A stretch of 64,000 nt of DNA from positions 186,001 to 250,000 of the forward strand of contig NBIV01000063.1 of NCBI GenBank assembly GCA_003194525.1. Direction: 5' to 3'. The translations under genes and the position numbers were made by a program. Of this stretch, positions 21,970 to 41,592 are shown piece after piece. Source of the DNA: Gracilariopsis chorda (Eukaryota > Rhodophyta > Florideophyceae > Gracilariales > Gracilariaceae). Below the pieces are notes generated by a model that had not been told where the DNA came from, ran no database searches, and was given only the letters and a program-made list of their open reading frames with translations. How positions within the stretch are numbered: the first letter of the stretch is position 1; every line of letters starts with the position of its first letter.

Positions 21970-22215
21970 CTGGTAAGCATCACTGCAATAGAAGCTTCGA
22001 ACCCCTTTCTGTGGATCAATCTCAAGCCGAATAAACCGAAATGCTTAAATGGGAGCCGCGACTTTCTTGTGGTCAACATCTGGCTGTACAAGGTGGAGCA
22101 GTACCCTGTGCTGGTTCAAGTCGCCAATGCAGATGTTGTGCTTTCCGATGCTATTGGCAGATCGTTTGCCACTACGCTTCTAACTGTTATAGCAGCAGTT
22201 TGATGGTTTACGGTT

Positions 22216-22595
22216 TTGATGGCTAATGAAGTCCTACAGTCTTGTGGTAGTTTTATTGCAGCTATTAGAACTAAATTTGTACCAAAAGATCATGAACGCC
22301 AAGCTCGAGATTACCTTAGAGCTTGCAAACAAAGTAGCACGGTCGCCAACTACCTTTCAGACTTTCAAAATATTGTGCTTACCATTTCGGATATGAGTGC
22401 AAGGGAAAAGTGGGACAAATTTTTTTAGTGTTTTTAAGCCAAAGATAAAATTCGAATTCCACAAGTGGAGTTGCGCTGAATTCGAAAAAGCAACGAAAAT
22501 TACAATGCTCATGGGAGCCGCTTTTGCAGGTGTTTAAATTGACTCAAAGTCTTCTGGTTCAGCTTCAAGTTCTTTCTTGACACGAAATGCAGCGT
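22216..22595 (+). pseudogene. Element A gag fragment
   Basis: The frame from 22216 (ATG at 22219) reads ARDYLRACKQSSTVANYLSD, the pattern of the Ty3/gypsy retrotransposon gag domain. It stops at 22426 and continues with a shift (FEKATKITMLMGAAF). It is followed by a Ser-rich linker and then the left end of the inserted DNA element. The zinc-knuckle end of the same gag lies at 40219 on the far side of the insertion. Confidence 0.6.
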
Positions 22596-22620
22596 ATCGT
22601 CGGTGTTTTCGGGATGCTAG
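22596..22620 (+). repeat. Left terminal inverted repeat of the 17.6-kb element
   Basis: Starts ATCGTCGGTGTT and ends ATGCTAG. It is the inverse of 40194-40218 with two mismatches. Confidence 0.6.
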
Positions 22621-22935
22621 TTTGGCATTCAGAAGGCAAAGAATTAAAATGAACGAATAACGACTCTTCAAACCCAATTTTGAATGAATCAAATTCTCAA
22701 AATAATTCCATCCATAGCACAGAGCTAGTTTGTTTGGGACAAAAGACTAGCAGTATACTGTATACTAGACATTTCCCAGTTTCTTTGGAGGCAAAACTAG
22801 TGCCAGACTCCACTAATACCTACCCTCTCAGGTGCAGGTGGAATCCAAATCTTACTGGTCCGGAGCGAGTGCCCCTTCAAATAGCAAAATAGAATAGATA
22901 GAATAGATACATAGCGTTTACATAACCAAATAGCT

Positions 22936-25900
22936 TTGGCTTTCTATCACTCGTTGCCCGACCTGCTCTCTGCATCGCATGCTCTACCCCACGCCTTACG
23001 AAAATACGCTCTGCATCACGTGCACCACCTCATCTACGTGCGCCATAATATTACGCTCCCCGATATCCCACTCCGCCACTACCCTCCCTTCTCTGTTTCC
23101 AAGCATCCCGTTCTCCGTTCTCCTTCCCCCGTCATGATACCCTGTTGCCATCCCCGTTGCACCTTCTATGGCCGCACCGCGTTCTCTTTCCAGAGTGACC
23201 AACGCAGGTGCCCTCATCGACTCACCCCCGACAAACTCCCTTCCTCCTCCGCCAACGCTCCCGTCTAGTTCCCTCCAAGGACCAAGCGACGAAAATCCGT
23301 TCCAAACCTCTCCACCATTCCTCCTCCCACTCCCTCACAACACCCCTCCGACAACGTCCCCCTCGCCGAAGATGAACCCTATCACATCCAACAGGCCTCC
23401 CTTTCCCTCCAAACACATTACGCACACCACATGGCAAGTCACGCCCTCTTTTCAGTATCCTCCTCAAACCCACCTCCCCATACCTCGTCCCAATCCCCCT
23501 CCCCTCTCCTCAACAACCCCCATCTCGAGCAACTCGTCCTCTGCATCTCCTCCATCGCTTCCTCCTTCAGCACATGCAAAGACGACGAACTCATCTCCCT
23601 TCTCAACCACCCGGACTTCTCCAAGTCAGCCTTCCAGAAATCCATCTCCTCTGCAAAGCAGTGCCTTGAACTCCAAGAACACCTCCTCAAGGAATGCATC
23701 AGCTCCACCGGCTTCCTCCCTCTCACACTCACCGACGAGCATAACTCGTTCTCCGCAACCCTCTTCCAAAAACGCGCCACAGACGTCCTGAAACAACAAC
23801 TCGCTCTCGCACACTTCAACATCACCTTCTTCCAACACGTCTCCCATTCGTCCCCTTCCTCCTCTTCCACCACAGCCTTCGCCCATCCTATGGCCGCAGC
23901 CTTTGGAAACAAAGTCGTTCCTGCCTTCAAACAAGCCATCATGCAGTGCCACATCAATGACATCGTCTGGCACACCCCCAAAACAACCGGTATGGAATCT
24001 TTCGTCGGTCTCGTCCAGTTATACTCCGATAAGTCTGCCACCTCACTCAAAAGCTCCTCCATCAACTCATATCCCCTTCACATCACCCTTCTCAACTTCT
24101 CAAACGCATACCGCCGTAAGTGTATCTTCGAAAACCTCACCCTCCTCGGATACCTCCCAACCTCCTTCTCCCCCTCTTCCTCCCCCGATCACGCAGAATT
24201 CATCCCACATTCTTCCTCCAACATCCCACGCGAAACAAGAATGGACCTCATTCAGCGCGTTATCTCTGCAATCCTCAACCCACTCCTCTCTTCCGCCCTC
24301 CTCGGTTTCTCATTTCGTGACGCCCACGGTGTACTCCGCCACTGCCACCCCATCCTCTCCAGCTACTGCGCAGACACCGCAGAGGCAAATGACATCCTCG
24401 CCATATCGCACGGAACACGACCACAGCACCCCTGCCCCAGATGTACCGTCCCCCGCGAACACCTCTCCCTCAACACAAACCCCATCCACTTCCGCACACA
24501 ATCCCAGACTCGAAAAAAACGCAGAGAAAACACACGCCGCTCTTCTTCGCCAGTCCGACGAGACCCAGCTCGCCTGCAAACCAAAAGTCGCTCGCACCAA
24601 AACAGAACAAGCGACCAGAGCCTTCCAGTCCCTCTCCCTCGCAAAGTATCCCTCTCTCTTCGAATCTTACGCCATTTTCAACATCACTCCCCTTCTCTCC
24701 TCTTACAACATCTTCGCCTTCGAACCCCTTCACAACTTCCACCTCGGCGTCTCAAAGCTCATCAAAGCTACTGCCATCGAACGGCTCTGCTCCAAATCAC
24801 TCTTCACCACAGTCGGCCCCAACAACACCAAACGTTCCTTCCATTCCATCCGCAACTCCATCCTCAAACACTCCAACTCCATCCTCGCCGCCATCGAAAA
24901 GGACTCCCCCGCACCCGGCCTCCACATCAACTTCTCCACAACAGACAACTCCCAAGCCCTCAACGGCTTCTTCACCACAGAAGGCTTACGAGGAATGCTG
25001 GAAGCAAAGGATTACCGCACCCTCGACATGGTTTTCCCCTTCATCGGCGCCTTCTTCGACAGATGCTGCAAAGAAACCGACTCCTGACCCATCACTTCTG
25101 TCTTCACCAAGTACACAGATCTCCTTCTCTCCGCTATTCGGTACAACTACTCCCCCGAATAGACAGACACCTCCCTCCTATCTCTCGAAAAACACATCAG
25201 TTCCGTCAAAGTCACAGCTGCATGCATTCTCGGACCATACCACTCCTCCCACCTCGGCACCCTAAAGTTCCATATCCTCGACCACATCTTCGAAAACATG
25301 CGCCGATACGGGGGTCTCCACGTCAACGACGCAGACATGTTCGAGCACCCCCACATCCTCTTCAAATCACATTACTCCAAAACTTCCAAGCGAAGAGCCA
25401 CCGCCCATACAGAAACCATCCGTGCTATAGACCACTCCAATCTCTTCAAAGACTGGAATCCAATTTCCACAGACCCTTACCTATCCTCCCATGCTCGACC
25501 TCAAACTCAACCGCAACAACGCAAACCCTCCTTTGTACGTGACGGAAAACATCTTTCCTTCTACGACATCTTCACAGCCGCAAAGTACCTTGCATCCACC
25601 TCCAACGCAAGTCCAAAATTTCTTCAAGAACTCTTCTCCTCAGACACGCTCTCCATCATCTCACAACTAGGTCACACCACACTTCATTCCTTCGTCTCCA
25701 TTTCCATCGAATATCTCAAGCTAAATCCCTCACCCAACAACCTCCGTCAAACTCGTCTCACCTTCGTCAACTCTGCATACGTCGTCGGCGGTTACATCCC
25801 AACACTACACAATTGCAACCAAGAACGAAACGAACTCGTCCTCCAAGAACTCTCTGTCCCTCTCCTCCAGCGCATCCTCGTCGTTCCATCATTCGGACCT

Positions 25901-26392
25901 TCCAGATCCCCAAAGTTCTCCCATATCCTTGTCGCAGGAACCAACTACTCCTCTCCATCCACACCCACTGTATGGGTCTCCAAGCTCATAGCCCTAGTTC
26001 GCTTCAAACTACCTTCCCCCTCTTCAAGCTCTTCCACCCCTATTACAAAGGAATTCGCTTTCGTACAATTCCTTGAACTCGTACCACCTCGCGACAGTGT
26101 CGATATCACCCTCAACTGCGTCTGCCTTCGGTAGTGAACCAATGAGGAGCGGGACCACACCACCGATCCAGTTCCCATGTCCAAACCTTCCACCGACGAC
26201 AATGTATCTCCTTGGTTCGGCCTCATTCCTTCCACCTCCATTCTAGGTGCAGTCCACGTCATTCGAGAAAACTACCCCGCCCCGCCATTCACTCCTCGTC
26301 TTCACTGGCGCTTCCATCGTTTCTACGTCAACCAATTCTATCATGATACCTCTTCAAAGCCTTACGCCCCACAATCTACAACACGTCAGTAA
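22936..26392 (+). pseudogene. KDZ-superfamily (Plavaka-like) transposase, decayed
   Basis: About 1,150 codons in two frames. Frame 1 runs from about 22936 (no ATG; first ATG at 23134) with a TAG at 23266. It shifts to frame 2 near 24505, then meets TGA at 25085, TAG at 25160, and TAG and TGA at 26132-26137, ending at 26392. Visible features in order: an N-terminal Cys/His cluster (PCCHPRC), LYSDKSA (first acidic catalytic position, 24028), SYCADTAEA (second, 24373), the PCPRC zinc pair, FEPLHNFHLGVSKL, a LGPYHSSHLG segment followed by ENMRRYGGLH, and the C-terminal FGLIPSTSILGAVHVI and FYVNQFYHD segments typical of Plavaka. The coding strand is very C-rich, unlike neighbouring host genes. Transposase identity is from motif memory, not a search. 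Confidence 0.75.
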
Positions 26393-26692
26393 ACCACCCG
26401 TTCCACCAGTAACAGTATTCTTCTTCAACTTGTTCTTCAAAACCTCCCAGACCTTCCTCCCACTGCGCCTACACATGATCCGTCGCCTCACCTCTCCCAA
26501 CATCTCGACTCTCTTTCACCAACCTCTTCATCCACACATCTTCTGGCCGACATGCAGCAACATAACAGTCCAGCACCCCTCCCAGCCGTTTCGTCATATG
26601 TTCCAAAACGTATTCATCCTGCACCGTCAAGTATATCCTCCGCTTCAAAGGTATCTACAGCGCTACTGTCACTTTTCTATCCCCATTGCCAG

Positions 26693-28831
26693 CTATACAA
26701 CGAGGTCACCCTCATCGCAACCTTCATTCTCCAATTCTTCATGATGTAGCTCTCTCACCCTCTCCCACGCCACACCAAGTATATTCTCTACCACGAGCGG
26801 AAGATACTCACCGTACAACGTAGAAAATAACAACTGCCGTCTTCCTCCAAGCTCCACATCTGTGTGTATTGCCGTCAAAACACATCCGATCCACGCATCC
26901 AAACGAGCCAAATGCATCACTCTCCCATCAACGTACTCCATCTTTCCCTCTCTTTCCGTTCCCACCTCATATCCCATGAATTCTTCCAACACTTCCACCG
27001 CAGCCCCGTTCTTGAAGTACATGTCCCCTTCACTAAACTCTCTCAGCCGCCCAGCAACCTGAAATCCAGAATACGTAAGATCTTCGATTGTTTTCATCCT
27101 CCAAGAACACAACCTACCACTTCTCGCCTTTCAATCCCCATGAACTTCGTCTTTACTTCCTTTAACTGCTTCTTCAACTAAATGTCTAGCTCCGTCCCCT
27201 CTCGCAGTCTCACACGTCTGGCTATCAATTCATATCCAAGCAACGAAAACATTTTGTCCCGTGCCGCACGCTTCCGAACCCCAATCACATCACTCAACTT
27301 CTGCTTCATACGTTGCCTCAAACACCTGTCCGCAACAACCTCCCGCACGCATTGATTCTTCCTACCCGCTTCACGAATCGACTCCCATCTCTCCCCTGAA
27401 TATCAACGCCAAACAAGTACTTCACAATATTTCATTACTTCCTCCTCGCGACGAAGGCGTGTACGACCTCATCTCAGACGCAATCTCAAACAGACATTGA
27501 TGTACAATCCCCTTTCCTCCCACAACAAACACAATCCCGTCTTTTCCCTTCCCCAATACTTCGCATCCATTCGTCCAGTTCCTTTCCACACCCTTCGAAG
27601 TAAAACAAAGCTCCGATACCTCCACCTTCGCATAGTACAACAACCTATCATATACTACCCTGGCAAACCCATAAAAACCCTCTTGCACATCAACCACATA
27701 CTTCCTAAGCCCTCGCAATTCCTTTTCACCTTCAGATCCCTTTCTCTCCCCTCCTCTCACCTTCATCCCTTCCCGTAAGCTATCTATCAGCATGTTCTTC
27801 TCGCTCATCTCTTCTCTCATCCTCTTCAGTTCCTCTTGCGTCAGCTTTAGCGACATCTCTAGGCTGCATTGGTCTCCTTTGATCTGCCCGAGTTCTGCCT
27901 TCAACATATAAACCCTCTCAACTAACGAAGATCGACACATCACACCGATGTCTTCATTCCCTGCATCTACCAAAATATTGACAGGCATCCATCGCTCCTC
28001 AGCAGGCTCACTTGGCGACCGATGAACACTTCGTTTCCTCTCTCGCATTCCTTCCGGAGTCCACTGCGTTCTGCTTCCTTCATCAATTTCCAAGTCTTGA
28101 GCCATTTGCACCTTTCGCGCCCGTACCGGGGTGCTCGTACGTTCTCCACTTTTCGATGCATCCTGTATTCCATCCGTCGCTCTGACCACTTCTTCCACTT
28201 CTCGCGTTTCCTTTAAATCAGAGCAGCGTCCCACTCCTTCCTCTATTCTCTCTCTCGTCCATCTCCCCTTCACAATGTGATCCTCTTCGTCCCCATCACT
28301 CTCTACCAAAGGGACAATTACCTCTCCTCCATATTGATTTCCCCTTGGGGCCCCACCTCTCTTCAGCGCAACTGCCTCTTCCATTTGTTTCCTTTCTGGC
28401 ATTCCTTCATCTTCATTTCGGTCTTCGACCCGCGCATTTGCTTTCAACCCTCTCTGATCTGGTACCTCTTCCTTTCTCCGAGCAACCGACCTTTTCTTAC
28501 CCTCCACCGCACCACCAGACCCAGGCATAGATCGCTGTCCCCGAACCGAATCTCTCCCGCATGCTACATGCGCATGGACATCAGCCTTCAAATCCTCACT
28601 CGTCGTGCGCTCACTCGTCGTGCGCTCGGATCCGACGTTCTTTGCCCCATCTCTTCCCCCTCTCTTCGAAGCACCTTCTCCTGACCTCCTCCCCGATAAT
28701 TCCCTCCTGGTAACACATGATTTAGCTTTCGTTCCACTCGCGGTTCGCTCCTCAATAGCCTTTCGCCACGTCTTAGGCGCACTCGCTTCACCACCCCTTG
28801 CCAGGCCTCGCTTCTTTCCCTTCGGCGCCAT
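26693..28831 (-). pseudogene. Basic coiled-coil protein of the 17.6-kb element
   Basis: The main frame starts at ATG 28831 (MAPKGKKRG) and runs 469 codons to a TGA at 27422. A further 139-codon piece in the same frame at 27112-26693 suggests the gene once continued; the segment between has several stops and a shifted readable frame. The N-terminal 330 residues are highly charged and low-complexity (Arg/Glu/Lys/Ser-rich, likely disordered and possibly DNA-binding). Residues about 350-410 form a predicted coiled coil (LVERVYMLKAELGQ and on). A more ordered C-terminal part follows. No enzyme motif. It lies 298 bp downstream of the methyltransferase-SET gene on the same strand, so it may share regulation. 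Function unknown; a structural or DNA-packaging role is only a guess. Confidence 0.55.
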
Positions 28832-29128
28832 TCTTGGAGTCAAACCTCTTGCGCAAGTGGCTAGTGTCGCTCTGGGATGGCGCACGCCGTGTGTTGTCCG
28901 GGAAAATCTCGCCACCCAATGCGCACAAAAATCTTGGTTTTTTGTGAAATCTTGAGAATACAATCCTCCGTGGTACCGAAAATGGACGTTTCTGTATCAA
29001 ATCTATATCGCTTTGTATCTTCTATCCTTACTGAAAATTGATGTTCTCCTAAGTTAGGACTACACATCCGTTCAAATAATAAACGTCACCCTTTAGCCAA
29101 GCTGTGGACAAAGGTTTATAACAGCAAA

Positions 29129-32100
29129 CTAATGAATGACTATCGTTCCATCCTCCACATTCAAATGGGTTTGCCAGTCAAAATCATCACCGTGTCTGGC
29201 AAAGAGTTCTCCTCCTTGCTCTATGTCGGCTGTCGCCTCCATCTTAATAAGTTTGTAGTCCGTTATTCTCCCTGGTGGTCGTCCCACTCCCGGTGTCCGT
29301 TTCATTCGGACATTAGCCTCCCTTTTTTTCACGAGGCCACCCACTATGGCATCTAACTTTTTATCGCCTCCCACGTCCTTTGAATCCTTGATATACCCCG
29401 CAATACAAAAAGGGGCAGGAACCACCCATAAAATGGGGTTTGCTTGTTTTCCATGCCAGTTTGTCAGCTGTTTTCGATGCGGAAGTGATTGGAACTGTTG
29501 ACCGTAGACTTCTATCTCCACCGCATACTTCCGGAAGCGATCCTTCGTCACACCCATGACTCCCTCCCAGTAGGTCTTGTGCACTTCTTTCCGATTCGAA
29601 AGGTCATGGTAAACCAACGTCTCGTAGAAATAGCACACTACCTCGCCTGCAGCAATTTGACGAGTTGCAAACACTCCAACACCAGCCTTTCGTGACGAGT
29701 AGTAGAATTGCCCACTCGCAACCCATATTGCACAGCCTGCATTTCCAATAGAGACTTCATGTTCTCCACATTCATTCTTCCCTGCAGCTCCCTTGGCCAT
29801 CTATCCATAGCTTTCTTCTTTCCCAACTTCCCTAGAATTTCGCTTTGCCACAAAGTGGAGAAAAAGTCGACAAGGTGTGGGGGAAGAATTTGGTACGGTG
29901 GAAATCCGTCGACAGCCCTCCATAACACGGTGTGCCTGCTTCTTCCCATTGGGAATACAGAGGAAACACAATGGGCCATCTTTCGAAGCTCCTGGCTCTT
30001 CTCAATATCCGTGTGTCCTTCCCGTATTATGGAAGCGAATCGAACAATAGTGGCATGCCTGGCGTGTTTAAAGCAAGCTTTGTCCGGTTCACACCCCACA
30101 AACTTCCGATGCTTGGGCAGTTCCATGCACGCCACCGCTGTCGAGAACGTTCCGCCAAACATGTCGACCACGAGGTCTCCTGGCTGACTGAACCTGCAAA
30201 TGAGCTCTTTCAACAGTGCGCTACACTTCTGTTCCAGTCGCACCCTCTTCCTCGTATATTTCCCATCCGGGTTTTTCACAGACCACATGAGTATCTCACT
30301 ATTTGACATCGGCGGCACCTGATCCATGATTGCATGATACGCTGGGTATCGTGAAATAACATAATTGAAGTTCTCATAGTTGACCATCTGGTGCTGTTGT
30401 GCATAAGGAACTCCAGAACGAACAGCATGTACAGCGTATTCTGTCGTCTGGTGCAACTGGAAACTTCTTCTCCCAACTTTACCCGTCGTATTACCTAAAG
30501 ACCGTACGAAATGGAGGGGCTGTTCGTCGACGACAAAGGAGTAACGCTTCGTATCAGAGTCATCCATGTAGGTAACTTTCCGTAGCACATCCCGCCACAA
30601 CGGTACCTGATCCCATGAGCAGAACTTTATAATATGTCCACCAAGACGTAGAAGCTTTAACGACCTCCTCGCTGCCCTGCTCATGCCTTTCTCGGTCAGA
30701 ATATCTTGTTCGTTGTTCTCCAAACGACGCTCAGAACCAGTCCCATATGGCGGATCGGAAATCAGAAACTGTACCCTTCCTTCAATAGATACCTCGCTTT
30801 CGCCAGAGTTGTTGTCGTCAACTTCGATGAGATTTTCCAACTTGCAGTTGTGGAGACGGAAGTGCGGTACATCTCCTTCCCACAATACTTATAAGCTATC
30901 AAATCATCCAAAGTCGTAGGGTACGGTGGTGCACGAATCCCCGTGCCTTCGACATCATACGATAAGTTCTGCGACAAAGCTGTTGTTTGCAGTCCTTCAG
31001 TAGCCTTTGGTGCAGTACCACGTTCCGCAGTACCACTTTCCGCGTCCTCTACCATCTTTATCTCTTCCACTTCTTCCAACTCACCCTGATCAGCACCTTC
31101 CACACGCTCAGCACGTTCGTTCCCACCATCAGCCGTACCAGTTTCTACCGGTTCCATAATGATGTCAACGTCTTCTGCGGGCTCTGGTTTTACAGCTTGA
31201 TGTACTTTGACATTGCTTCCATGCAATGAAATGAGCTTCAGAGCCTTTATTGCCTCTTGAACCGTAGTGACAAGAGATTCACTAAAGTTCTCAAACCGCA
31301 GAGGGAAAAGTCTCGTTCTCGTGATGATGAACCTTTTGAGGGCATCCCATTTGCTGGGAGCAGAGATGTCGAACAGTTTCTCTTGTACCACCACATTAGA
31401 AAGGTCACCAAGGTATTCTTTGGCACAAAGGCAAAGCGCTGTATCCACTGGGTCCGGCAGATTCCATGCCCATTTGGTAACGTTTTCTTCTACGGTGGTT
31501 ACGTTTTTCTCCTCCACAAACTGTTTGGAACAATCTTTGTGTTGGAAGCCCATGGAAAGTTGTGCGATATCGGTAAAGACTACACTGATATATTCGAGGC
31601 GAATGTAAGGCAAGATCATAACCTCAACGTTGGGAAACCCGAGGAATTGGGCGAAACAATCCCAAGCCCTGGTCACCAGCTGCACACCATACCCGACTCT
31701 CTGACTCTGGGTCTTGTCCGAACAACTCACTTTCGAGAACTTCTTAGCTGCCATGCCGCTTTTCCTCTTCCTACCACTTCCTTTCTTATCCATGGCAATC
31801 TGTTGCACCATAGACAACCCAATGACCATTTCAAAGTCGGTGCAAGGATCCGTGTGGAATGCAGAAGATTTCTTGGTTGCTCCCAAAACACGGGAATTGC
31901 AAAAGATAGATAGCAACACGTTACGGGGAATTCCTTTAGGTCCTTCCCTTTTACAATAAACCTTCCAAAAGTCCCTTACACGCCTGTCTTATTCACAGTC
32001 CTTTACGTCCACCACTCTTGCCATAAGATAGAGATGACGTAGAGGGCCTCTGAGAGACATATTACGGAGCTCGGAGTCCGAATACGAGATGTAATCCGGT

Positions 32101-32333
32101 CCGATGAGAGTGAAAAACATTTTCTTGGCAGAGTCATGAACGTTGCGACTTTGTACCGCGAACTCAACAAGGTCGGTGTGCTTCAAACTTCTCGGATAAT
32201 CCAAATTTTGCCTCGTCGCTGCATATTCATCGCGAACTGCAAGATAAGCATCAATAAGCTCTTCTCCGGTTCCGTGCATCTTGAATGAACCCGTTTTCTT
32301 TGCGGGTACAGTGGAGGCTGGGCTAGACACCAT
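29129..32333 (-). pseudogene. DNA amino-methyltransferase plus SET-domain protein, broken
   Basis: Probable single gene of about 1,065 codons from ATG 32333 to a stop at 29129. An in-frame TAA lies at 31989, with frameshifts near 30880 and 29690. Part 1 (32333 to about 30900) is a novel N-terminal region with an acidic low-complexity end. Part 2 is a beta-class methyltransferase: catalytic DPPYGTG (30745-30756 for DPPY), then about 190 residues, then the AdoMet motif DLVVDMFGGTFSTA near 30160. Order IV then I fits N6_N4_Mtase enzymes; Asp in DPPY favours N6-adenine over N4-cytosine. Part 3 is a SET domain: GVGVFATRQIAAGEVV, then NVRMKR where NHS-type motifs sit, then DIEQGGELFARHGDDF. If the domains were separate genes, the SET frame could start at ATG 29800, but that overlaps the methyltransferase frame by 160 bp. 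Confidence 0.7.
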
Positions 32334-32640
32334 GATAACTTCTTCTATAGAGGAGCTTATGAAATAGTGGTGTCGTAAGCGGACGTCACAGCACTCACGG
32401 GAGGTTTCAAGCGGTGAGAAAGGGCGGATAGCCAAAAGGAATTGGTCGTGGTAGCTTCGAAGGAAAGGGGTAAAACTGTTGGAGACGACCACTCTGGTGC
32501 TTTCTTTAACAAGAAAAAGGTTGTTCTTCGGGTTCCATAGAAGTTTTCAATCGCCCAAACCGACGCAACGAATGCGGTTGCGAAGAATGCCCAAGACGCT
32601 TTTGATTTGGTTGCCACGGATTATGTTTCTCTTCGTTTTG

Positions 32641-32788
32641 GGTCAAGGTCCGTGGTTCGAGGTGTCATGGTGCTCCATCGCAATTACGATGGAGCGCCAG
32701 GCATGAATGTTAATTAAAATCTCGCGTCCTGGCGCTCCATCGTCATTGCGATGGAGCACCACGACACCTCGGACCACGGACCTCGACC
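32641..32788. repeat. 148-bp palindrome between divergent genes
   Basis: Arms of exactly 61 bp (32641-32701 and 32728-32788) are reverse complements with only a few mismatches, around a 26-nt AT-rich centre. Each arm contains its own small hairpin: GCTCCATCG, 6 nt, CGATGGAGC (32672-32695 and 32734-32757). The 9-mer therefore occurs four times in alternating orientation. It lies in the 667-bp gap between the start codons of the methyltransferase-SET and dioxygenase genes. A cruciform-forming replication origin, a shared operator or a small foldback insertion are all possible. Confidence 0.85.
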
Positions 32789-32888
32789 AAAAAATTATCA
32801 ACTTCTTTTTGAAATGCAAGTAATTGGGAGGGGAATTGCAGGGATGCTACGTTGACGACAATGGATGTCATGAAACGTCGTGAAAACG

Positions 32889-32896
32889 ATATATAG
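32889..32896 (+). promoter_or_regulatory. TATA-like box of the dioxygenase gene
   Basis: ATATATAG lies 104-111 bp before the proposed ATG at 33000, close to the TATA-to-ATG spacing of the host genes in this window. Confidence 0.45.
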
Positions 32897-32999
32897 TGCT
32901 TACGTCCATCTCTTTGGAACCAAGCCTACGTGATCACGGGAGCATTCGACGTCAGTGGGTGCCAAGAAAACGCAAGCGCGACCTTTGAAGTACTCAGCC

Positions 33000-35900
33000 A
33001 TGGATTCCACTGGGAATAAGATAAACGCGCCATCACGGAAATGGACTCCGAGGAAGCCTGTTTCGCCAAAGAGATGTGTTATCGACATGCCGACCACGCG
33101 AGGCAAAGCGAAGAGCCAGGGCGCCACCCGAACTGCCAGCCACCCTGAGCAATGAATTGGGGGCAATACGGGTCAGGTGCTTAAGGGCGATGCGGAGGTC
33201 AATCTGTTCGTACGAGTTGGGAGTAGTGATGCGAAGGTGAAGGTAGAAGAGGCGAAATTGCGCGGTGTGGGGGTTGCTGGGGGGCCGGGGACGAGATTCT
33301 GTCGTTCACTACACAACCATCCCCTGTCCTCTACGCAGAGACCTGGAGAGGACTTGGTGGTTATCTTTAAGACAAATATTTCGTCACACCAAGATGAGAA
33401 GTACCCTTATGTTTTTGGGGGTACCAAGGAACCACCCGCAACTTTGTAGGAGATGACTTGAGCGGGTTTATATGCATGGGACACTGTGATGATGAGTGTC
33501 ATAAATGAAGGCGGAGAGGGGAATGAGTCGGTTCCACCGCAGTCAGGAGCAAATTTGAAGACTTTCCACAGAATTACAGCTTCCAGGACCACTGCAAGAC
33601 AAGTCAAGCACCTTCCCGCTGTTGCTGGTACACCATCAAGCATTTTGGTGACCAAAGCGCCGTTGAAAAGCCTTCAGAGTGGTGGAGAGGCTCCGGTGAA
33701 AACCCGTCAGAGCGATGGAGGAACATCAGGTGCTCTCGCGGGCGGCTCTGGGAACCAAGGAGGCCCTGAAGTCGGAGCAAACTCCGATGATGACGTCATA
33801 GAGGTGCCTGTACTCTCCAGGAACGATCTTGATCCGGGGGAGAGGGTTATATGATGACGGTGATGCTGTTCCTTCGAAAGAGGTGGATAACAGTTTGGGG
33901 GTCTTAGACATCAATTGGGATGATTAAGACCAGCACAATTGCGTAATTGATATCCACAACATTCGATTTCCGAAGAACATGGTTCGTTCGAAGAATGACA
34001 AACATCTTCGAGATAATTCGAACAAACTGAGGAAATTCGGATGGCTCCTTTCTCTTGGGTCGATTGCCGTGGCCCTGTTGGAGGATGTGCCCGTTCGTGA
34101 CGCTATTGATGCAAGTGGGCGTTTGATTGTTCCTGTGGTTTTGGTGGACTGCTTCCATTGAGTGAATGCTCTACTGGACCTCGAGCAGGATGGTGCAAAA
34201 TGGACACGGATTACTGCTGGTTTGAACGTCACGCTATGGGAACGGAACGACGGCGGGAGACTGACATTGAATGAGGTGTTGTGGCTGGGGAAGACGTTGA
34301 ATGATTTGAGCTCCAATGTTCTGGTGATGTCCTTCGCGGATAAGATTCACACTGCTGTTTCGTTTATTCGTAATGGCGTAGAGCAGGATGGGTATGATTT
34401 GTCGAAGCTTAAACCAAGCCAAATCACGGGGGTGTTGTGGAGCAGTGAGACGAAGGGGAAAGAAGGGAAGATACGTCATTTCAATCGCCATTCTGCTCTT
34501 GCTCTGAAGTTTGCGCGTAATCCCTGTCTGTTAGAGTTCTTCGATGTGGTGTGGCAGGAGACGCCTCAAATTGGAATCACCCATGTGTCTAGTGATATTC
34601 TGCTTGGAAATTCAGGGAATAAGTTTCGTTTTACTATCCAAAGTCTACAGGCGCATGTTCGAGTGAGGTCGGTGGCCACTGTGAAGATGGGACCGTTTGA
34701 GGATTTCCAAAATTACTTCTTCGACTGCGCGTCTTGAACGTATGACATTTGCAGTGAGGTGGGGAGTTCCATGAATGAGAAAAAGAATGTACAGGAAGTG
34801 ATGAATACCACAGTTACCATCGGCGATTCTGACCAGACTTTGTCAGAGTATATCATACCTCGTCTGGGAAAGCGGTATACGAAAGGGAAACGCAGTTCAC
34901 TGGAGTCCAGAGTGAGTAATAAGGTGAAAGAGGTTCATAGGACGTTGTACAGCGCTTTGTCGGGCATGCAGGGACAGGATGCTACTGCTCCTGCTCCCTC
35001 TGCAGCCGATTTGGACGTGATCGAGTTGCTTGGCCTGAATAAGGAAGCTGCTCAGGAGCCTCCGAACGCTGAACAGAAGCCTCGAAGAAGTAAGCGAATC
35101 TCAAAAGGAGCGTAAAGTTGAGGTCCTGGACGAAGATGAAGATGAAGAGTCAGTTGATTTTGAGCCACCGGTGAAGAGTCAGAGACCATCGAATCGTAAG
35201 CCGACTGCACCTGGTGTGAAGCGACCTGGGTTTGGTATCTTGCAGGAGGTGGTGGAGGTGCTGCGTAGTATGGAAAGGAGTGATTTGAAAAGGAGGTTGA
35301 CAGCATCGGAGATCATTGTGCTCGAGTCAAGCGAGGATGAAGCTCAGGAGAACTTTGTGGATAATGAGGAAGACGAGGCAGAGGAGCAGCAAACCGCAGG
35401 CAGCTTTGACGATAAGAATCCTGACAAGCTTCCAGCTGGCTTACGTATGCCAGGAGAGCTGGCTATGGGAGCGGACATGTCTTGGGTGGACCTGGTATAC
35501 TCGTTGCCGAGTGAGTGGCCTGCAAGCGGAAATGCAGTGAAGCATTCCCATCCATGGATGCAGAGGATAAATCTGAGAAAGCACCATCGAGCGGAGTGCC
35601 TATCACCTGATGACTTCCGAATGGTTCATCATGCTGTGTATTGGCGTGCGTCGCACAACATGCACAAAGAGATGGGTACTACGACACGTGCAGAGCTGGG
35701 CGTGAAGATGCCGTCATCAGGAACGGCATCGAATGAAGAGGAAGCGTTATGGATTGCCGCTTTTGAGAGAGAGGACTTGGCTCGTGTTTACTTTGCGAAG
35801 AAGAGAGTGGAGCTGTCGGAGAGAGGGTTTTGTGTCCTGGAGAATTTCGGGACAGATGAAGGCATGGCGAGTGAGGCTTCGAAGAGGGGACTGCAAATGG

Positions 35901-36874
35901 ACGAAGATGTGATAGGAGAACTGATGGACTTCTTCGAACGCGACTTTGTTTCGCAACCGGATCTCACGAACGAAGCGAATCGTTTTTTCTGGAATATGAT
36001 CATCAATACAAGAGGGGTAAAGGATGTTAAGAATGATATCAAGGCGGTGGGGCGTTTCATCTTAACCAAACGAGGGATTGCGGACAGAATTGAGGAGCTT
36101 GAAAACGGTGCGGTTCTTGCTCGAAAGAGAGCCATGTTGGATGCAAAACTCGGTCAGATTGCAGCGGCTCTCGGGTTGTCTGAAAGTGGAACAATGTATG
36201 CCCCTCAAAAGGGTGGCCAAATCCTTTGTACTGGAGAGGATTGTCCGAGGCAGGTGCTACACACGGATTTCAGGGGTTTGACGGAGAATGACAGGATGAG
36301 AAATGTGAACCCGGGGTATTTTGCAATGGCATCGGGACCGGATGCGTTCATGATTTGGGTTTGTGAACGGTCACATACTGTAACAATGACACGGGGTTAC
36401 TTGAAAGAGCTTTCGACTTCTATGATGGTTCGGAAGTTCAGAGTTCCACCGTTTTCTGTGTTAATTGGAAAAGGGGATGTATTTAATGCTGGAGCTGGGT
36501 ACAATGATGCAATAGCGAAAGGCTATTGCATGCGATACCATATGTACTTTGTACCTGAGCGATACAATCTCCTGGATGCGGTGCATAGGCAAAGCGGTTT
36601 CCGCCCTCCCTTTTTTAATGATGAAGAGGACCGTGTCGATTTATCTGAGGTGGGAGGAGGGGAAGAGGAGCGGGGAGATGAAGCTGACGATAGAGATGTA
36701 GTTACGCAAGAAGCAGAACGTGAGAACCCGTCGGATGAGGAGGACGATGAGGATATACTGAAACCAGCGGAAATGAACACTGGTGGAGATTATGAACAGG
36801 AGGATGACTATGAGGGTGGAATGGTTCCTAAAAGAGCAGAGGGTCTGATAGATGAGAACGATGAAAGCGATTGA
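33000..36874 (+). pseudogene. ParB-like plus 2OG-Fe(II) dioxygenase protein, decayed
   Basis: About 1,290 codons from ATG 33000 to TGA 36872-36874. Stops at 33153, 33447, 33459, 33925, 34159 and 34735, and frameshifts near 33850 and 35100, interrupt it, yet the intervening frame reads as continuous protein. At 33930-34230, IHNIRFPKN, then GRLIVPVVLVDCFH, a stop, and VNALLDL resemble the ParB/sulfiredoxin fold. The last 567 codons (from about 35171) are uninterrupted. They have an acidic linker, a helical domain, then VLHTDFRGL (the HxD iron motif, about 36258) and IGKGDVFNAGAGY with RYHMYFVPE (about 36470-36555). Relatives have His-Ala-Gly where FNAGAGY has Asn, so the distal iron ligand seems lost. 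The acidic C-terminal tail is low-complexity. The subfamily is unresolved; TET/JBP, AlkB-like and phytanoyl-type oxygenases share the motif. Confidence 0.65.
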
Positions 36875-37563
36875 TAATGATAAGTAAACTAGTGATATAC
36901 GTTTGTTAAATCTGATGACTGCTTTTTGATCTTTATAGTGAATGTTTATAGTGAATGGGAGAGGTTTACTACGATTGGGATTACTTTTTATGCAGCTTCA
37001 TTCGAATGATGCGTAATAATGAAGGGATGATGTCTACAGAGATTTCGCTTGGTTATATTCCATAAAGAAAGGTCTACAAGTATGAGAAGAAACTTGGGAT
37101 GGGTGTGTTGGAGGGGAGAATGAAGGCGCAGCTCATATGAAACACGAATGGATGTAAAATTGAGTATGGGATTATGTATGAGAATTGAAGGTGATTGTAC
37201 GGGTGTGAAGGATCCCGTTGTTATAGCCAAATACCACGATTTTCCATCCTGTTGATATAGAAAGTACTGGTTCTTTTCATACATGAATGCATTGTGGCGT
37301 GCTTGATGTATGAAGAAGAGTGAAGAGGGTGAAGGCATTATCGTGTAGAGGTTCAAAATATTGTTTTGTGTGCTGGGATGCTGGGAAGGACAAGGGGTGA
37401 GCAAATGAGAAGATGATAAGCTGTGCATTTAAGCACTGACGAAGTTGGTTCAAGTGAAGAGGTTAGACATTAATTATCGACTTTTGAACATTCATTCACG
37501 ACTCTTGAACATTCATTCACGACTCTTGAAGATTCATGTCATTTGAGAACATCCACACGCACC
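36875..37563. other. Spacer within the 17.6-kb element
   Basis: No supported gene on the plus strand. The minus frame at 36988-37428 lacks element-like composition and motifs. A short tandem repeat lies at its right end (37478-37538). Confidence 0.4.
37478..37538 (+). repeat. 21-bp tandem repeat, about three copies
   Basis: Unit CGACTCTTGAACATTCATTCA, nearly three copies, ending 26 bp before the ATG at 37564. It may be a promoter or iteron-like site of the element. Confidence 0.7.
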
Positions 37564-37913
37564 ATGAGTACTATTTCCAATTTTCGGTCCGTGACCGGAG
37601 GACCCGTATACATGTGGACATCTTTCCCAATGAGACGGTGATGAGGTTTGATTAAGTACTTGAAATTCGGTATAAAACGGATACGGAGAAGTGTGTTGTG
37701 CGAGGGGCGTCGAGGTTGCTGACTGCTGGAATTTTAGAGGATGTGACGAAGATATATGAAGTTCTCGACGCTATACCGACACATAATCATATCTTGACGA
37801 ATGCAAACTTTTTGCACGTGCTGTATGGCAGTACGCATTTAAAAGAGTATCTGGTTAGTGCGTCAAACCTTTCTAAAAGCCCTGGACATATGTTCAGCTT
37901 TAATGGGTGGTAA
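37564..37913 (+). pseudogene. Small unknown protein of the element
   Basis: A readable frame (frame 3) runs from about 37569 to TAA 37911-37913. A premature TAA at 37653 sits where CAA would fit. An ATG at 37564 is one frame off. The product is about 115 residues, mixed alpha/beta in character (RIHVDIFPNE, LEIRYKTD, IYEVLDAIPTH), with no recognised family. It lies between the dioxygenase and membrane-protein genes on the same strand. Confidence 0.4.
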
Positions 37914-38243
37914 ACATATGCGTTTATGTTTTCATTAGCCACTGGTGTTCTTTATGGGGTTTTGAAACCAGTTTAAATGCATTATGTGGTGGGTGATGGT
38001 AGGATGTCTTCGAAGATGTTATTTGTGGTGATATTGGAGACGGTTTTGCATTGGCTTCTCTTCGATATTGTGTCCTAATTGCATAGGAGGTACTTTTGTC
38101 CATTGGCGTTTGTACGTTTGAGGGGGAGGGAACGGCTGGAAAGATTTTCTGTGATTCGAAACAGACTACTTGGATTCACAGTGGGACGTCTAGTGCCGTT
38201 GAATGCTTGAATTTTTGTTACCTATCATTTCTTGGGAACGCCA

Positions 38244-38666
38244 ATGTCGCTTAGAACGGAACTTAAGACTGGCGCTGTTGCATTTTTCAGTGGTGGGTTC
38301 ATGTTTGGGGCTCTTTCATATGTTGTGGAGCGGCTGAAGATGTTCTTTGTGACTGGGAACAGCATGAACAATGAGATAGGGCTTCCATATGTGCAGAAAG
38401 GTATTGGTGAGCTGATTTTTGGTGTTTGCGGGACTGTATGCCGGGGTTTGAAGAAGGTGGTGGGGATAACCGATGGTGTGGCTGCTATTAGGCTCTTTAT
38501 TGGAATGGTGTTACCTGTGGTATTTACGTATTTGATATCTACATTTGTGAGGGAGACTTCTTTGCACAATGTAAGGGAACTGTGGCCTGTAGTAGAGAAC
38601 ACTATCTTTTTTGTGTTGTTGCTTTTAGTTATGGCTGTGGATATGGACTTAGAGTACAATTTTTAG
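38244..38666 (+). CDS. Membrane protein of the element, 140 aa
   Basis: ATG at 38244 and stop at 38664, uninterrupted. Three hydrophobic segments are visible: residues about 10-30 (GAVAFFSGGFMFGALSYVV), about 80-100 (FIGMVLPVVFTYLIS) and about 118-135 (TIFFVLLLLVMAV). A charged loop with basic residues separates the first two. No family recognised. It is one of the few frames in the element without a break, though short genes survive by chance more often. A membrane protein is unexpected for a simple transposon and fits better with a virus-like ancestry. Confidence 0.55.
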   Translation: MSLRTELKTGAVAFFSGGFMFGALSYVVERLKMFFVTGNSMNNEIGLPYVQKGIGELIFGVCGTVCRGLKKVVGITDGVAAIRLFIGMVLPVVFTYLISTFVRETSLHNVRELWPVVENTIFFVLLLLVMAVDMDLEYNF

Positions 38667-38956
38667 AGGTATGTTGCGAGTCTGGGAGAGCAACCGAGGC
38701 CTTTTGGGTCTTGTTTTCGACCATTCCTTTAGATAGCATTGTACTTCTACCTCTCCATACTTAGGGTGACTGAGATGTAAAATGTTGTCCTAGATAGGCT
38801 GTTTCTGATCATTGGTGGGACACGTGGTATGGCGGTGGGATATGGCGCGAAAACGGGGGATTGAAAAAATGGGGATGGATAATTAGTTGGAGTGTCCACG
38901 CTTTGTGGTAGGGGGTTGGGAACGGGAGCACCGTTGAGGTGGGGATTGTAGTAGCC

Positions 38957-39740
38957 ATGTCGAGTGGATCCGTCAATGATGAGGAGCTCCTGGCGTTGTT
39001 GGATAAAGCGGAGATGAAAGAGGTGCCGGAGACGCCTCCGGGGAGAAGAGGGATGAGGAAGGGGATGGTGATGGTGAAAGGCGCGAGGAAAAGGCGGTTC
39101 TTGGGCTCGGGGAGCATGGGGTTGGGACGATGATGGGAGGGGATGGTGGGGAGGGAGGTGCGGGCGAGGGTGGTCGAGGAGGAGGGGTAGGGGGAGGTGG
39201 AGGGAGACGAATGGATGGGTTCTACCGCGATGTGAAGGAACTATTGAGGAGCGCTGGGGGAGGGCTTAAGGAGCTTTGGATGAGTGTATTGAGGAGGTTG
39301 TCGTTGAGTTGGGAGGAATTGTTATGAGTGCGTCGGAGGAAGAAGTGGCGATGGGTGCTGTGGCTGAGTTGCGCCGGAGGGTGAGGGAGGCTGGGGTTTG
39401 GGCAGAGCAGCATGTCGATGGGGTTGTGGCGTGTGTGGGAGAGGAGCTGGGGAGGCTGTGGAAGGAGAATGAGGAGTTGCGAGGACCGATTTTGGATTTG
39501 GAGAAGCGGCTTTTACTGGCGGACAGGGCTGTGTATCTATTCGAGGATATGCGGAACAAGATGTATGGAGGTGGAGGGGAAGGTGGGGTGGGAGGTGCTG
39601 TCGAGAGTGGGTCTTCGGTTACTCCTGGAGGTAGAGGGGTCGTGAAAAGGAGGTTGAAGGAGAAGGACGAAGAAGGATTGGAGGTTAAGAGTCGGTTGAA
39701 GAGGAGGCATGGAAAGATGGAAGAGGGAGAAGAAGGCTAG
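38957..39740 (+). pseudogene. Gly-rich and coiled-coil protein, frameshifted
   Basis: Three overlapping plus frames in sequence: ATG 38957 to 39133 (basic, RRGMRKGMVMVKG), ATG 39130 to 39327 (Gly-rich, then MDGFYRDVKELL), and 39276-39740 (Glu/Leu heptads, VGEELGRLWKENEELR, then a Lys/Arg/Glu tail). They probably form one gene of about 255 codons with two frameshifts. The coding strand is extremely G-rich. It superficially resembles the minus-strand coiled-coil gene at the other end (basic plus coiled coil), but no alignment is claimed. Confidence 0.5.
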
Positions 39741-40193
39741 TTATGTTTAGGAGTGTCGTTGAGGCTGTTAGGACGACGGAATGGGTGGTATTGGAATCTG
39801 ATGCGTGGTGCGTCGGGTGTGTGAGAACGGAGAGAGCTGCCCAGATGAGTTCCTGAGGATGAGTTGGAAGTCAAACTAGGGCAGTATGAAGTTTGAAATT
39901 CAAATGATGGAAATAAAAATGTTAGTTTTGGTTGGGTGCTCGAAATTGCGATGGCCGCGCAGCGGCCAGCGCCATTTCGGGATCTGTATCTAGCTTTTAG
40001 TGGAGAATGAACTTGCTCCAAACTTGAAACTAGCGATGCGCGGTGCAGGTGAGGCAAGGCTCTGTAAGATATGGAAGTGTGAATTCCAAATAGATTCTTT
40101 TTTACTTGGCAAGCGCCAGAAACTAGCAGAAGCTATCATTTTCGTAGTATTTTTGAGCTTTTGCCTAAGAAACGTGCGATCTAGCACCTCTAT

Positions 40194-40218
40194 CTAGCAT
40201 TCCGAGAACACCGACGAT
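40194..40218 (-). repeat. Right terminal inverted repeat of the 17.6-kb element
   Basis: CTAGCATTCCGAGAACACCG to the terminal CGACGAT. Inverse of 22596-22620 with two mismatches. CTAGC recurs nearby at about 39989, 40031, 40123 and 40180. Confidence 0.6.
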
Positions 40219-40443
40219 GAGCCAATAGAAATCGGCAGTACTGAATTTCGTGGTACGGAGGGCTCCAAGCAGCGTTTGGTGAACATTCGAAACAATGAAT
40301 GCTTCAAATGTTACAAGCCGGGTTGTCGAACCTGTAAACATCGCTCCAAATTGGCACGAATTGTGAAAGTGGCAAATGTCGATATTACGTTAGCTATGAA
40401 AGAAGACGTTGGTGATTTTAGTTCTGATAGTTCGGAAAACTAA
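40219..40443 (+). pseudogene. Element A gag C-terminus with Cys-cluster knuckle
   Basis: Continues gag after the insertion. The frame contains CFKCYKPGCRTCKH (C-x2-C-x4-C-x2-C), a nucleocapsid-like knuckle differing from the usual CCHC, and ends at TAA 40441. The protease ORF starts 20 bp later in a different frame. Confidence 0.55.
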
Positions 40444-40463
40444 AACGTCCTTTCGGAAATAAA

Positions 40464-41054
40464 ATGAGCACGTTGAAAGGACTTTTATTTAACAACGTGT
40501 TGCCTAGATCTGAATGGAAGAGTTCGCAAATTGTTCGTTTCGTATCGTTACTGGTGCTGTCTGAGACATTCAATGATATCTTCACGCGAATACTCAAGGA
40601 TGATGGATGTACTTCTAATGTTAGGTCGAAAGAATTTGCTGAAGTCCATAGAGAGGAGTTTGAATTCGGTCCGATTCTTATGGACGTGTGCCATTCGAAA
40701 ACAGGTTCTCGTGAAGTTGCTACGGAAATGATCTTGAGCGGCACAATGCGCACTTCGCACCACTCATACCTGGCGGAATGGATTGTGGCGGATGCTCGCT
40801 ACGATGTGCTACTAGGTATGCCATGGAATATCAACTGTAATCCACAAACTAATTATCCACCACGTACCGTCGTCGTTGATACGAGGGAGCTTTTAGCCCA
40901 GTATGTCTCTCGTCTGGATGCCCACGAAGTTCAAACCATGGAGGTGACACAAATTCGTCGCCCTTTGCGTCACCCCAAGGCGGGAATACAACTGTTCAGG
41001 GTGGCTCAGGTGAACAATTCCGAGTTCTTGGAAGAAGATGCAGTCCAACAGGAT
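40464..41054 (+). pseudogene. Element A protease region of pol
   Basis: ATG 40464. LKDDGCTSNVRSKEF corresponds to the retropepsin active site (usual DTG/DSG; here DDG), and ARYDVLLGMPW is the flap-distal ILG motif with the following aromatic. The frame runs straight to the AGGAT target site at 41050-41054, where element B was inserted. Frame continuity resumes at 50741. Confidence 0.65.
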
Positions 41055-41592
41055 TGTAGTACAGTGGGTACTATGTATACTCCTAAGGATGGGCTGTTAC
41101 AGAAGACTCCGAACGGAGTACCTGCATTTTTTGACTGGTGCCACGTAGCACACCACTCCAGAGGAATCGTTTCAGCAGACTGTAGTTCAATTAGGGGGAA
41201 TTACCTAATTTAGATCTTTATAGGGTACAGCAGATAGTTTCCGTCGGGGATAGCATGCGGCACTGAATATAGTGCACTGCTGGAGCTCCCTCGAGGCGTG
41301 TTCTAGTTCGTCTGGTTCATACTCGTCATACTCACCTTCAGGTAAACTATACGTCATCCTCTAGGTGTGGTTTCTAAGCCACCGATACCCAGCACGTCCC
41401 GTAGTAGCGCCTGTACGATTTTCGTCCACCCAGTGATCCCGCTCCTCGCTTGGTACTTGCGTATCTCCTTTCAGGATTCCCCCGGGCACCGCTCCTATAT
41501 TAGGGAGACCACCACCTACTGGAACCCATCTGTTAGGCCGAATCTAAAAGTACCATTTTACGGATGTTGTGCTCACCACTGGCTATACGAAA
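41055..41592 (+). repeat. Element B left LTR
   Basis: 538 bp, paired with 50158-50735. TGGTCTCCTAACC just inside (41594) is the candidate primer-binding site. Confidence 0.75.

Follow-up and report, generated by a model that had tools for sequence, protein, structure and literature searches.

Boundaries and class of the element

The window analyzed here, a 64,000-nucleotide stretch of Gracilariopsis chorda DNA, contains a DNA transposon that forms a single mobile unit at positions 22598-40216. A repeat search of the window returned an inverted repeat at 22596-22620 and 40194-40218 (25 nt, 92%). On comparing the flanks among copies and with an empty site, the outermost two nucleotides on each side, AT (22596-22597 on the left, 40217-40218 on the right), were identified as the target-site duplication (TSD). 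The inverted repeat proper is 23 nt long, and both arms were placed by the repeat search and by copy comparison (left, 22598-22620, forward strand; right, 40194-40216, reverse strand). Flanking dinucleotides were equal in 9 of the 14 copies with both ends read (CA, TA, AT, CT, AT, AA, CG, AT, and AT), where chance would give about one match (14/16), and unequal in the other five (C7, two C212 copies, C347, and C32). An empty site was preserved in C131, a repeat related to the one hosting the element, and was restored exactly at the element ends. With the 23-nt repeats, the AT duplication and this empty site, the claim of an earlier note that one element lies within one pair of terminal inverted repeats was borne out.

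The transposase gene (23134-26371, forward strand) is broken by a frameshift near 24515-24534 and by stops. As the same note had proposed, it is Plavaka-like: the Pfam Plavaka transposase domain PF18759 was matched in the window (E=3.2e-20) and in the intact homologue of copy C53 (1087 aa, E=2.5e-21). Protein P0002 reads CPRC at residue 437 and HLLDH at residue 715, candidates for the C(2)C motif and the H(3-4)H motif that Plavaka transposases have between the second D and the last E. The 2-bp duplication, found in 9/14 copies and at the empty site, agrees with the 2-3 bp TSD of Plavaka (CMCT/CACTA-like) transposons, a group classed with CACTA/EnSpm (PMC12730594). The element is, then, a copy of a large Plavaka-type (CACTA-like) DNA transposon that moves by cut and paste. 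The note had also called the transposase KDZ, a label that we reject on account of the PF18759 domain and the 2-bp TSD, as against 7-8 bp in KDZ (Kyakuja 7, Zisupton 8; PMC12730594). In copies with both ends read, the element starts and finishes with CGTCGGTG..CACCGACG, unlike the termini given in that source for fungal PlavakaA and PlavakaB (TGT..ACA or CATCA..TGATG), which are absent from the element. This difference argues against membership in those two subgroups and not against the Plavaka transposase family.

A DNA methyltransferase fused to a SET domain

A DNA methyltransferase-SET gene occupies 29135-32360 on the reverse strand, as judged from Pfam matches and intact copies, and is broken in the window, where the frame shifts twice, once near 30861 and once near 29689. 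Its methyltransferase ORF (29641-30885, reverse strand) matched N6_N4_Mtase (PF01555, E=1e-13) and has the features of beta-class DNA amino-methyltransferases, namely this domain and a DPPY that precedes the SAM-binding F-x-G motif. Its SET ORF (29132-29800, reverse strand) matched PF00856 (E=1e-5), with 26.0 bits in the window and 23.3 bits in protein P0001, both above the cut-off of 22.4 bits. The earlier description, a DPPY methyltransferase adjoining a SET domain, was right as to both domains, but in intact copies they form one protein of 1060 aa. The fusion also recurs in families that have diverged from each other and among relatives from metagenomes, which yielded 31 homologues.

The catalytic motif of SET domains is NHxC. 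At this position, 13 of 14 copies read IND and the window reads IKD, so that the histidine is replaced in all 14; the motif is missing in some homologues too. This makes catalysis by the SET domain uncertain. When the MTase-SET protein was compared with known structures, the match list was taken up by the methyltransferase domain, which shares the fold of the beta-class N6-adenine enzymes CcrM and M1.HpyAVI (PDB 6pbd, 5hfj). These are short bacterial enzymes, about 20-27% identical in the aligned part, without a SET domain or a large N-terminal region. DPPY favors N6-adenine as the substrate (PMC8885841), but N4-cytosine enzymes have the same fold. Scans seeded from the methyltransferase motifs returned 25 relatives among viral contigs and 24 among prokaryotes, with alignments that stopped at or before query residues 775 and 778, respectively. 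On these motif-seeded scans a viral origin was rejected, the alignments of the 25 viral relatives falling short of the SET part.

The ParB-like gene and the remaining genes

A gene in pieces at 33087-36874 (forward strand; start placed by eye), whose longest piece in the window is a 611-aa stop-to-stop ORF (35039-36874), corresponds to open frames of 1417 aa in copies C550 and C204. In better copies, we picked out by eye a ParB-like motif (VDGFHR or VDGRHR) and a motif resembling 2OG-Fe(II) oxygenases (HTD...GDVFH...R). The pattern of the latter enzymes, HxD...H...R, fits: among the nine copies with the region, HTD was found in eight (DTD in C212a), the histidine of GDVFH in eight (asparagine in the window; RDVFH in C212a) and the arginine of RYH in all nine. 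Protein P0035 has the pattern as well. Pfam returned neither ParB nor any oxygenase family for P0003, P0035, and the C46 piece; NCBIfam returned only low-complexity matches for P0003 and P0035; and a sequence search of the PDB gave no convincing match (best E 0.22). A weak PHROG ParB match (E 0.027) was obtained only in homologue P0026, and the predicted structure of the 2OG part (pLDDT 32) was unusable for fold comparison. Of the ParB-like/2OG-Fe(II) protein proposed in the note, the motifs stand, but family or structural matches do not back them, and the gene is a putative oxygenase at the level of motifs.

A hydrophobic, membrane-protein-like gene, in pieces, lies at 37915-38666 on the forward strand; its family-2 counterpart in C144 has five windows over a Kyte-Doolittle value of 1.6, in agreement with the membrane protein previously announced. 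Two charged genes, both in pieces, are coiled-coil-like by eye: CC1 (26693-28963, reverse strand, with a 513-aa ORF at 27422-28963), intact in C53 as a 775-aa frame, and CC2 (38957-39740, forward strand, start placed by eye). The genes described as coiled-coil proteins are thus present, but that character is an assessment by eye, profile matches being weak and below cut-off.

Copies, families, and gene order

The assembly, at 91 Mb and with seven phycobilisome-linker matches, is in keeping with a red alga; it contains at least 40 left ends and at least 40 right ends. Copy C46 is colinear with the window element over 17.6 kb (94%), and the gene order is identical in a second, younger family (C745). 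The note had expected several copies with the same order and ends, and these were found at tens of loci; the opposite pattern, transposase and enzyme genes always at separate loci, was looked for and is not what is seen. The window copy, its genes interrupted by frameshifts and stops, is an old, decayed representative of a kind of transposon whose additional genes form a stable set. Genome-wide, SET lies just downstream in 91 of 150 N6_N4_Mtase matches. Seventy-three of the 150 are within 15 kb of a Plavaka match, and 71 of these 73 pairs are oriented tail to tail. Conversely, 40 of 114 Plavaka matches have no N6_N4_Mtase match within 15 kb, a few of them at contig starts (e.g., C803 and C628), and copy C32 entirely lacks the methyltransferase.

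The window element itself lies within another repeat, showing that nesting does occur in this genome, and one could imagine enzyme genes of another element or of the host merely caught between the repeats. Yet the order is common to two families and tens of loci, the pairing is tail to tail and the empty site is exact at the ends. For the MTase-SET and ParB/2OG genes this rules out chance nesting, to which we attach a negligible probability.

Selection on the genes

Between families, MTase-SET had a dN/dS ratio of 0.17-0.18, and the 2OG half of the ParB/2OG gene had one of 0.17-0.22; the SET domain was under the same selection as the methyltransferase domain. The C347 transposase had a value of 0.333. 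Between families, purifying selection acts on the transposase, on MTase-SET and on the 2OG half. Within family 1, MTase-SET changes looked neutral (private, 0.91 of expectation; shared, 0.98), indicating that selection does not maintain individual copies. It follows that finding the methyltransferase in copies whose transposase is deleted does not mean that it is needed there, and we rejected selection for it in such copies, which drift.

Bacterial-type methyltransferases can protect genomes, and the 150 N6_N4_Mtase matches would suit passenger genes kept because they benefit the host and not the element, for instance by warding off viruses or other elements. However, family-1 copies decay neutrally and selection operates between transposon families, not between copies, making this a very improbable account.

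A possible role in marking the element

Since the enzyme genes were maintained by selection during the divergence of the elements, the transposon may control the chemical marks on itself. Judging from domains and motifs, we give roughly even chances to a Plavaka transposon with a self-encoded writer of DNA and lysine methylation, perhaps accompanied by a ParB/oxygenase antagonist. The methyltransferase domain would write N6-methyladenine (or N4-methylcytosine) on DNA, and the SET domain, if catalytic, would methylate lysine, probably histone lysine. Together they may label element copies or their chromatin, and labeled copies might become expressible or mobilizable, or be shielded from host repression. 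More tentatively, the ParB/2OG protein might bind element DNA and oxidize the methyl mark, forming a writer-antagonist pair.

In bacteria, Dam methylation regulates transposition of IS10/Tn10, and the enzymes could similarly act as a timing switch, with no part in chromatin protection: methylated or hemimethylated ends, or the central palindrome, would control transposase expression and copy number. The methyltransferase domain is CcrM-like. The palindrome (32636-32793, 66-nt arms) lies at the point from which the MTase-SET and ParB/2OG genes diverge, is a candidate shared control site for the two, and occurs twice in several copies. Such a switch would leave the SET domain superfluous, which fits poorly with its conservation between families. 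We regard it as possible, though rather unlikely.

The self-marking reading also has to be weighed against anti-silencing of the fungal TET+ type, in which the oxygenase would strip host DNA methylation, helped by the other enzymes, and copies would escape repression. Many DNA transposons of fungi, including some of the Plavaka group, do carry TET/JBP genes (PMC12730594), and the HxD...H...R motif of the ParB/2OG gene is suggestive. However, C5 DNA methylase (PF00145) had no match in this assembly, where an intron-split or unassembled gene could escape the search; 10 of 14 control genomes were matched, all 10 being prokaryotes. With controls of this kind, the absence makes TET-style escape from 5mC less likely. 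The ParB/2OG proteins also lack a Pfam oxygenase match. Furthermore, among the three family-2 copies fetched, the oxygenase region is gone in C53 and C144 and in pieces in C745, although long frames persist in C550 and C204. The TET/JBP parallel is thereby weakened, and this explanation appears improbable. As for host MT-A70, no match was found in the assembly, but no control genome matched either.

Relation to known systems and significance

Among the closest systems in the literature, TET+ fungal transposons including TET+ Plavaka (Kojima 2025, PMC12730594) share a Plavaka-type transposase, a 2-3 bp TSD and an enzyme whose targets, in their case, are DNA marks. They carry an eraser, whereas this element carries a DNA methylase domain fused to SET and the ParB/2OG gene. 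HarbingerS and oomycete MuDR elements, cited in the same work, are likewise DNA transposons that carry a gene for a SET methylase but have other transposases, and the passages at hand make no mention of a DNA methyltransferase. Retrotransposons of dinoflagellates and charophytes bring their own DNA methyltransferase too (PMC5890265); these are retroelements with host-derived C5 cytosine methylases, and SET does not figure in the available part of that account. The N4CMT of bdelloid rotifers, with its proposed SETDB1 loop (PMC8885841), is similarly a bacterial amino-methyltransferase in a eukaryote linked to SET, but it is a host gene with an SPPY motif and a chromodomain, and its SET lies on a separate protein. 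The Plavaka giant repeats of Amoebidium (PMC11244446) contain tyrosine recombinase genes, and MTase-SET goes unmentioned in the excerpts of that article.

Transposons with erasers (TET), with SET enzymes and with C5 methylases were thus already known singly; a single protein joining an amino-type DNA methylase and SET inside a DNA transposon was not found in the literature searched, Plavaka papers included, as far as the accessible portions of these sources go. Two questions thereby become testable: can a eukaryote receive a DNA-modification system from mobile elements, and can a transposon owe its persistence to writers instead of erasers? A bolder and doubtful reading is that a whole transposon clade maintains an epigenetic layer of its own in a eukaryote that lacks C5 methylases, one protein writing DNA amino-methylation and chromatin lysine methylation and the ParB/oxygenase removing it, with this transposon family as the principal origin of DNA methylation in the host. 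If true, the non-CG methylation reported in Gracilariopsis chorda, as a review relates (PMC8566409), could partly be transposon-made N4-methylcytosine.

A single mobile unit carrying the gene set

An unguided repeat search returned terminal inverted repeats at 22596-22620 and 40194-40218, and the outermost AT at each side is the target-site duplication, which places the element, a Plavaka (CACTA-like) DNA transposon, at 22598-40216. The element's flanks joined with one AT gave an unbroken match to C131:52146-52332 (83%, query 18-204, junction 97/98), on another contig of the 91.3-Mb, 1081-contig assembly in which the window is C63:186001-250000. This is the empty site within a related repeat, and 22598-40216 therefore arrived as a single unit. 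Both ends were read in 14 copies, and the dinucleotides on the two sides were identical in 9 of them and differed in 5. The sequence hosting the element (about 22501-22597 and 40219-41210) looks like an LTR retroelement, with a Cys-rich motif recognised by eye and an RVP_2 (aspartyl-protease) match under the cut-off (E 0.016). GC skew was mirror-imaged over the element (22001-40000), the left half being C-rich (to -0.52) and the right half G-rich (to +0.50); outside, its size was at most about 0.15.

The earlier note had assigned the transposase to KDZ. This was not borne out, as PMC12730594 groups Plavaka with CACTA/EnSpm and corrects the same author's former KDZ placement. It had also described a methyltransferase adjoining a SET domain; both domains are there, yet the two ORFs are pieces of one broken gene, here called MTase-SET.

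Genome-wide pairing of the domains

Pfam scans of the genome (E up to 0.001 for Plavaka and N6_N4_Mtase, up to 0.05 for SET) gave at least 114 Plavaka, 150 N6_N4_Mtase and 125 SET matches. Plavaka lay within 15 kb of 73 of the 150 MTase matches, against about 3.7% expected at random places, and 71 of these 73 pairs were tail to tail as in the window. In such counts, members of the same family are not independent cases. Conversely, an MTase match lay within 15 kb of 74 of the 114 Plavaka matches and was missing from 40. A same-strand SET match began no more than 1.2 kb downstream of 91/150 MTase matches, mostly at a spacing of 374-430 nt; 34 of the 125 SET matches had no MTase partner. Outside the list of window-MTase protein matches, SET was still downstream of 36/55 MTase matches, and these divergent sequences suggest an architecture common to several families. 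One MTase homologue (P0030) and one Plavaka homologue (P0052) carry names from Bacteroidota MAGs, possibly mis-binned eukaryotic contigs.

Two families of copies

The first and the last 600 bases of the element each matched at least 40 places at 92-100% identity, window counted (best 40 of 142 and of 133 candidates, respectively). Among the matches listed, an MTase match lay inward of 31/40 left and 32/40 right ends, in the expected place and orientation, family-2-like rows of the MTase protein search being excluded. The 17 ends without one include C51:4019, 4 kb from its contig start, and C32, truly without MTase. We took 11 more copies of this family (family 1) that had both ends among the listed matches, a choice that biases the sample to better-preserved copies. 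C46 was colinear with the window element along its full length (93.9% identity), and others had internal deletions. Of the 12 copies, window counted, 6 had a deletion of the transposase core (about 24276-26635) in common and 11 contained MTase-SET, which was absent from the 6.5-kb C32. Genes of the window copy are broken. C212:30901-61349 holds two copies in head-to-head orientation, separated by about 4.8 kb; the left flank of one is nearly the reverse complement of the left flank of the other, a pattern resembling an inverted duplication.

With the window MTase as a protein query, 102 matches fell into two groups. The large one was of family-1 type, at best 80-89% identical and with stops in many. 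The other, near 71% identity, had near-identical scores and long frames mostly without stops; it is a second, younger family. Its exemplars, C144 (an 8-kb deletion derivative), C53 (11.9 kb) and C745 (truncated on the right by the contig end, about 16.8 kb left), have long stretches in common that are about 99% identical. C53 has an intact transposase (1087 aa), MTase-SET (1060 aa) and both coiled-coil-like genes, CC1 (775 aa) and CC2, and is missing the gene joining ParB-like and putative 2OG-Fe(II) oxygenase motifs, recognised by eye (ParB/2OG). The gene regions of C745 are colinear with the window element, but the C-terminal part of the C745 transposase is missing and ParB/2OG is fragmented. 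Full-length stop-free transposase frames occur at C386, C31, C259 and C550, and 1417-aa open frames span ParB/2OG in C550 and C204; none of the fetched copies had all genes intact together. The sequences adjoining copies at C144:67767-71497 and C53:98412-101462 contain PIF1-helicase-like ORFs in tandem as well as a large ORF, part of which resembles an Ulp1 protease (all by eye); these are possibly other mobile elements.

Selection between families, decay within

By Nei-Gojobori counting, only approximate where dS >1, dN/dS of family-1 copies against C53 or C745 was 0.165-0.183 for MTase-SET (11 copies), with 0.155-0.185 for the MTase and 0.155-0.171 for the SET domain (4 copies), and 0.168-0.223 for the 2OG half of ParB/2OG (9 copies, one short). 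The transposase gave 0.173-0.204 (C230, C46 and the window copy), 0.200 (C35), 0.333 (C347) and 0.224-0.310 in 7 shorter comparisons. Values were 0.214-0.368 for CC1 (12 copies), 0.265-0.444 for CC2 (11 copies) and 0.382-0.572 for the hydrophobic, membrane-protein-like gene (6 copies). Within family 1, ratios were 0.76 for MTase-SET, 0.65 for the transposase and 0.92 for the 2OG half. Relative to neutral expectation, MTase-SET there stood at 0.91 for private and 0.98 for shared changes, the 2OG half at 1.00 and 1.13, and the transposase, over its first 377 codons, at 0.71 and 0.55. These values indicate that the modifier genes were constrained in jumping lineages and that inserted copies decay.

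Between the families (window element against C53, C144 and C745), divergence was uneven. The transposase, hydrophobic gene and CC2 had a dS of about 0.4-0.7 (C347 transposase, 1.06). In MTase-SET, CC1 and the 2OG half it was about 1.05-1.55, with 1.98 in one short comparison. The pattern is what an exchange of the central cassette, or homogenisation of the outer parts, might leave.

A possible writer and a possible antagonist

DNA transposons with a SET gene (HarbingerS and MuDR) are named in PMC12730594, together with many TET+ ones, and C5 methylases are already known from retrotransposons (PMC5890265). In the open-licence literature searched, we found no amino-type DNA methylase fused to SET inside a transposon.

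No C5 DNA methylase (PF00145) was matched genome-wide, against 150 N6_N4_Mtase matches; of 14 control genomes 10 were matched, and all of these 10 were prokaryotes. This makes a TET-like explanation less likely in this genome. The review PMC8566409 gives about 8% methylation, mostly non-CG, for Gracilariopsis chorda, which, if this is the organism here, would count against a host without DNA methylation.

MTase-SET and ParB/2OG are divergently oriented, and the palindrome that separates them (66-nt arms, 92%, at 32636-32793) is a candidate shared control site of the two; the segment around it (about 32617-32947) is doubled in C10, C3, C230, C35 and one C212 copy. The gene set, the fusion, the mobility and the selection between families are shown by these data. 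We propose that MTase-SET may be a writer that modifies the DNA and chromatin of the element itself, its substrate, marks and benefit being presumed, and that the ParB/2OG protein could be its antagonist.
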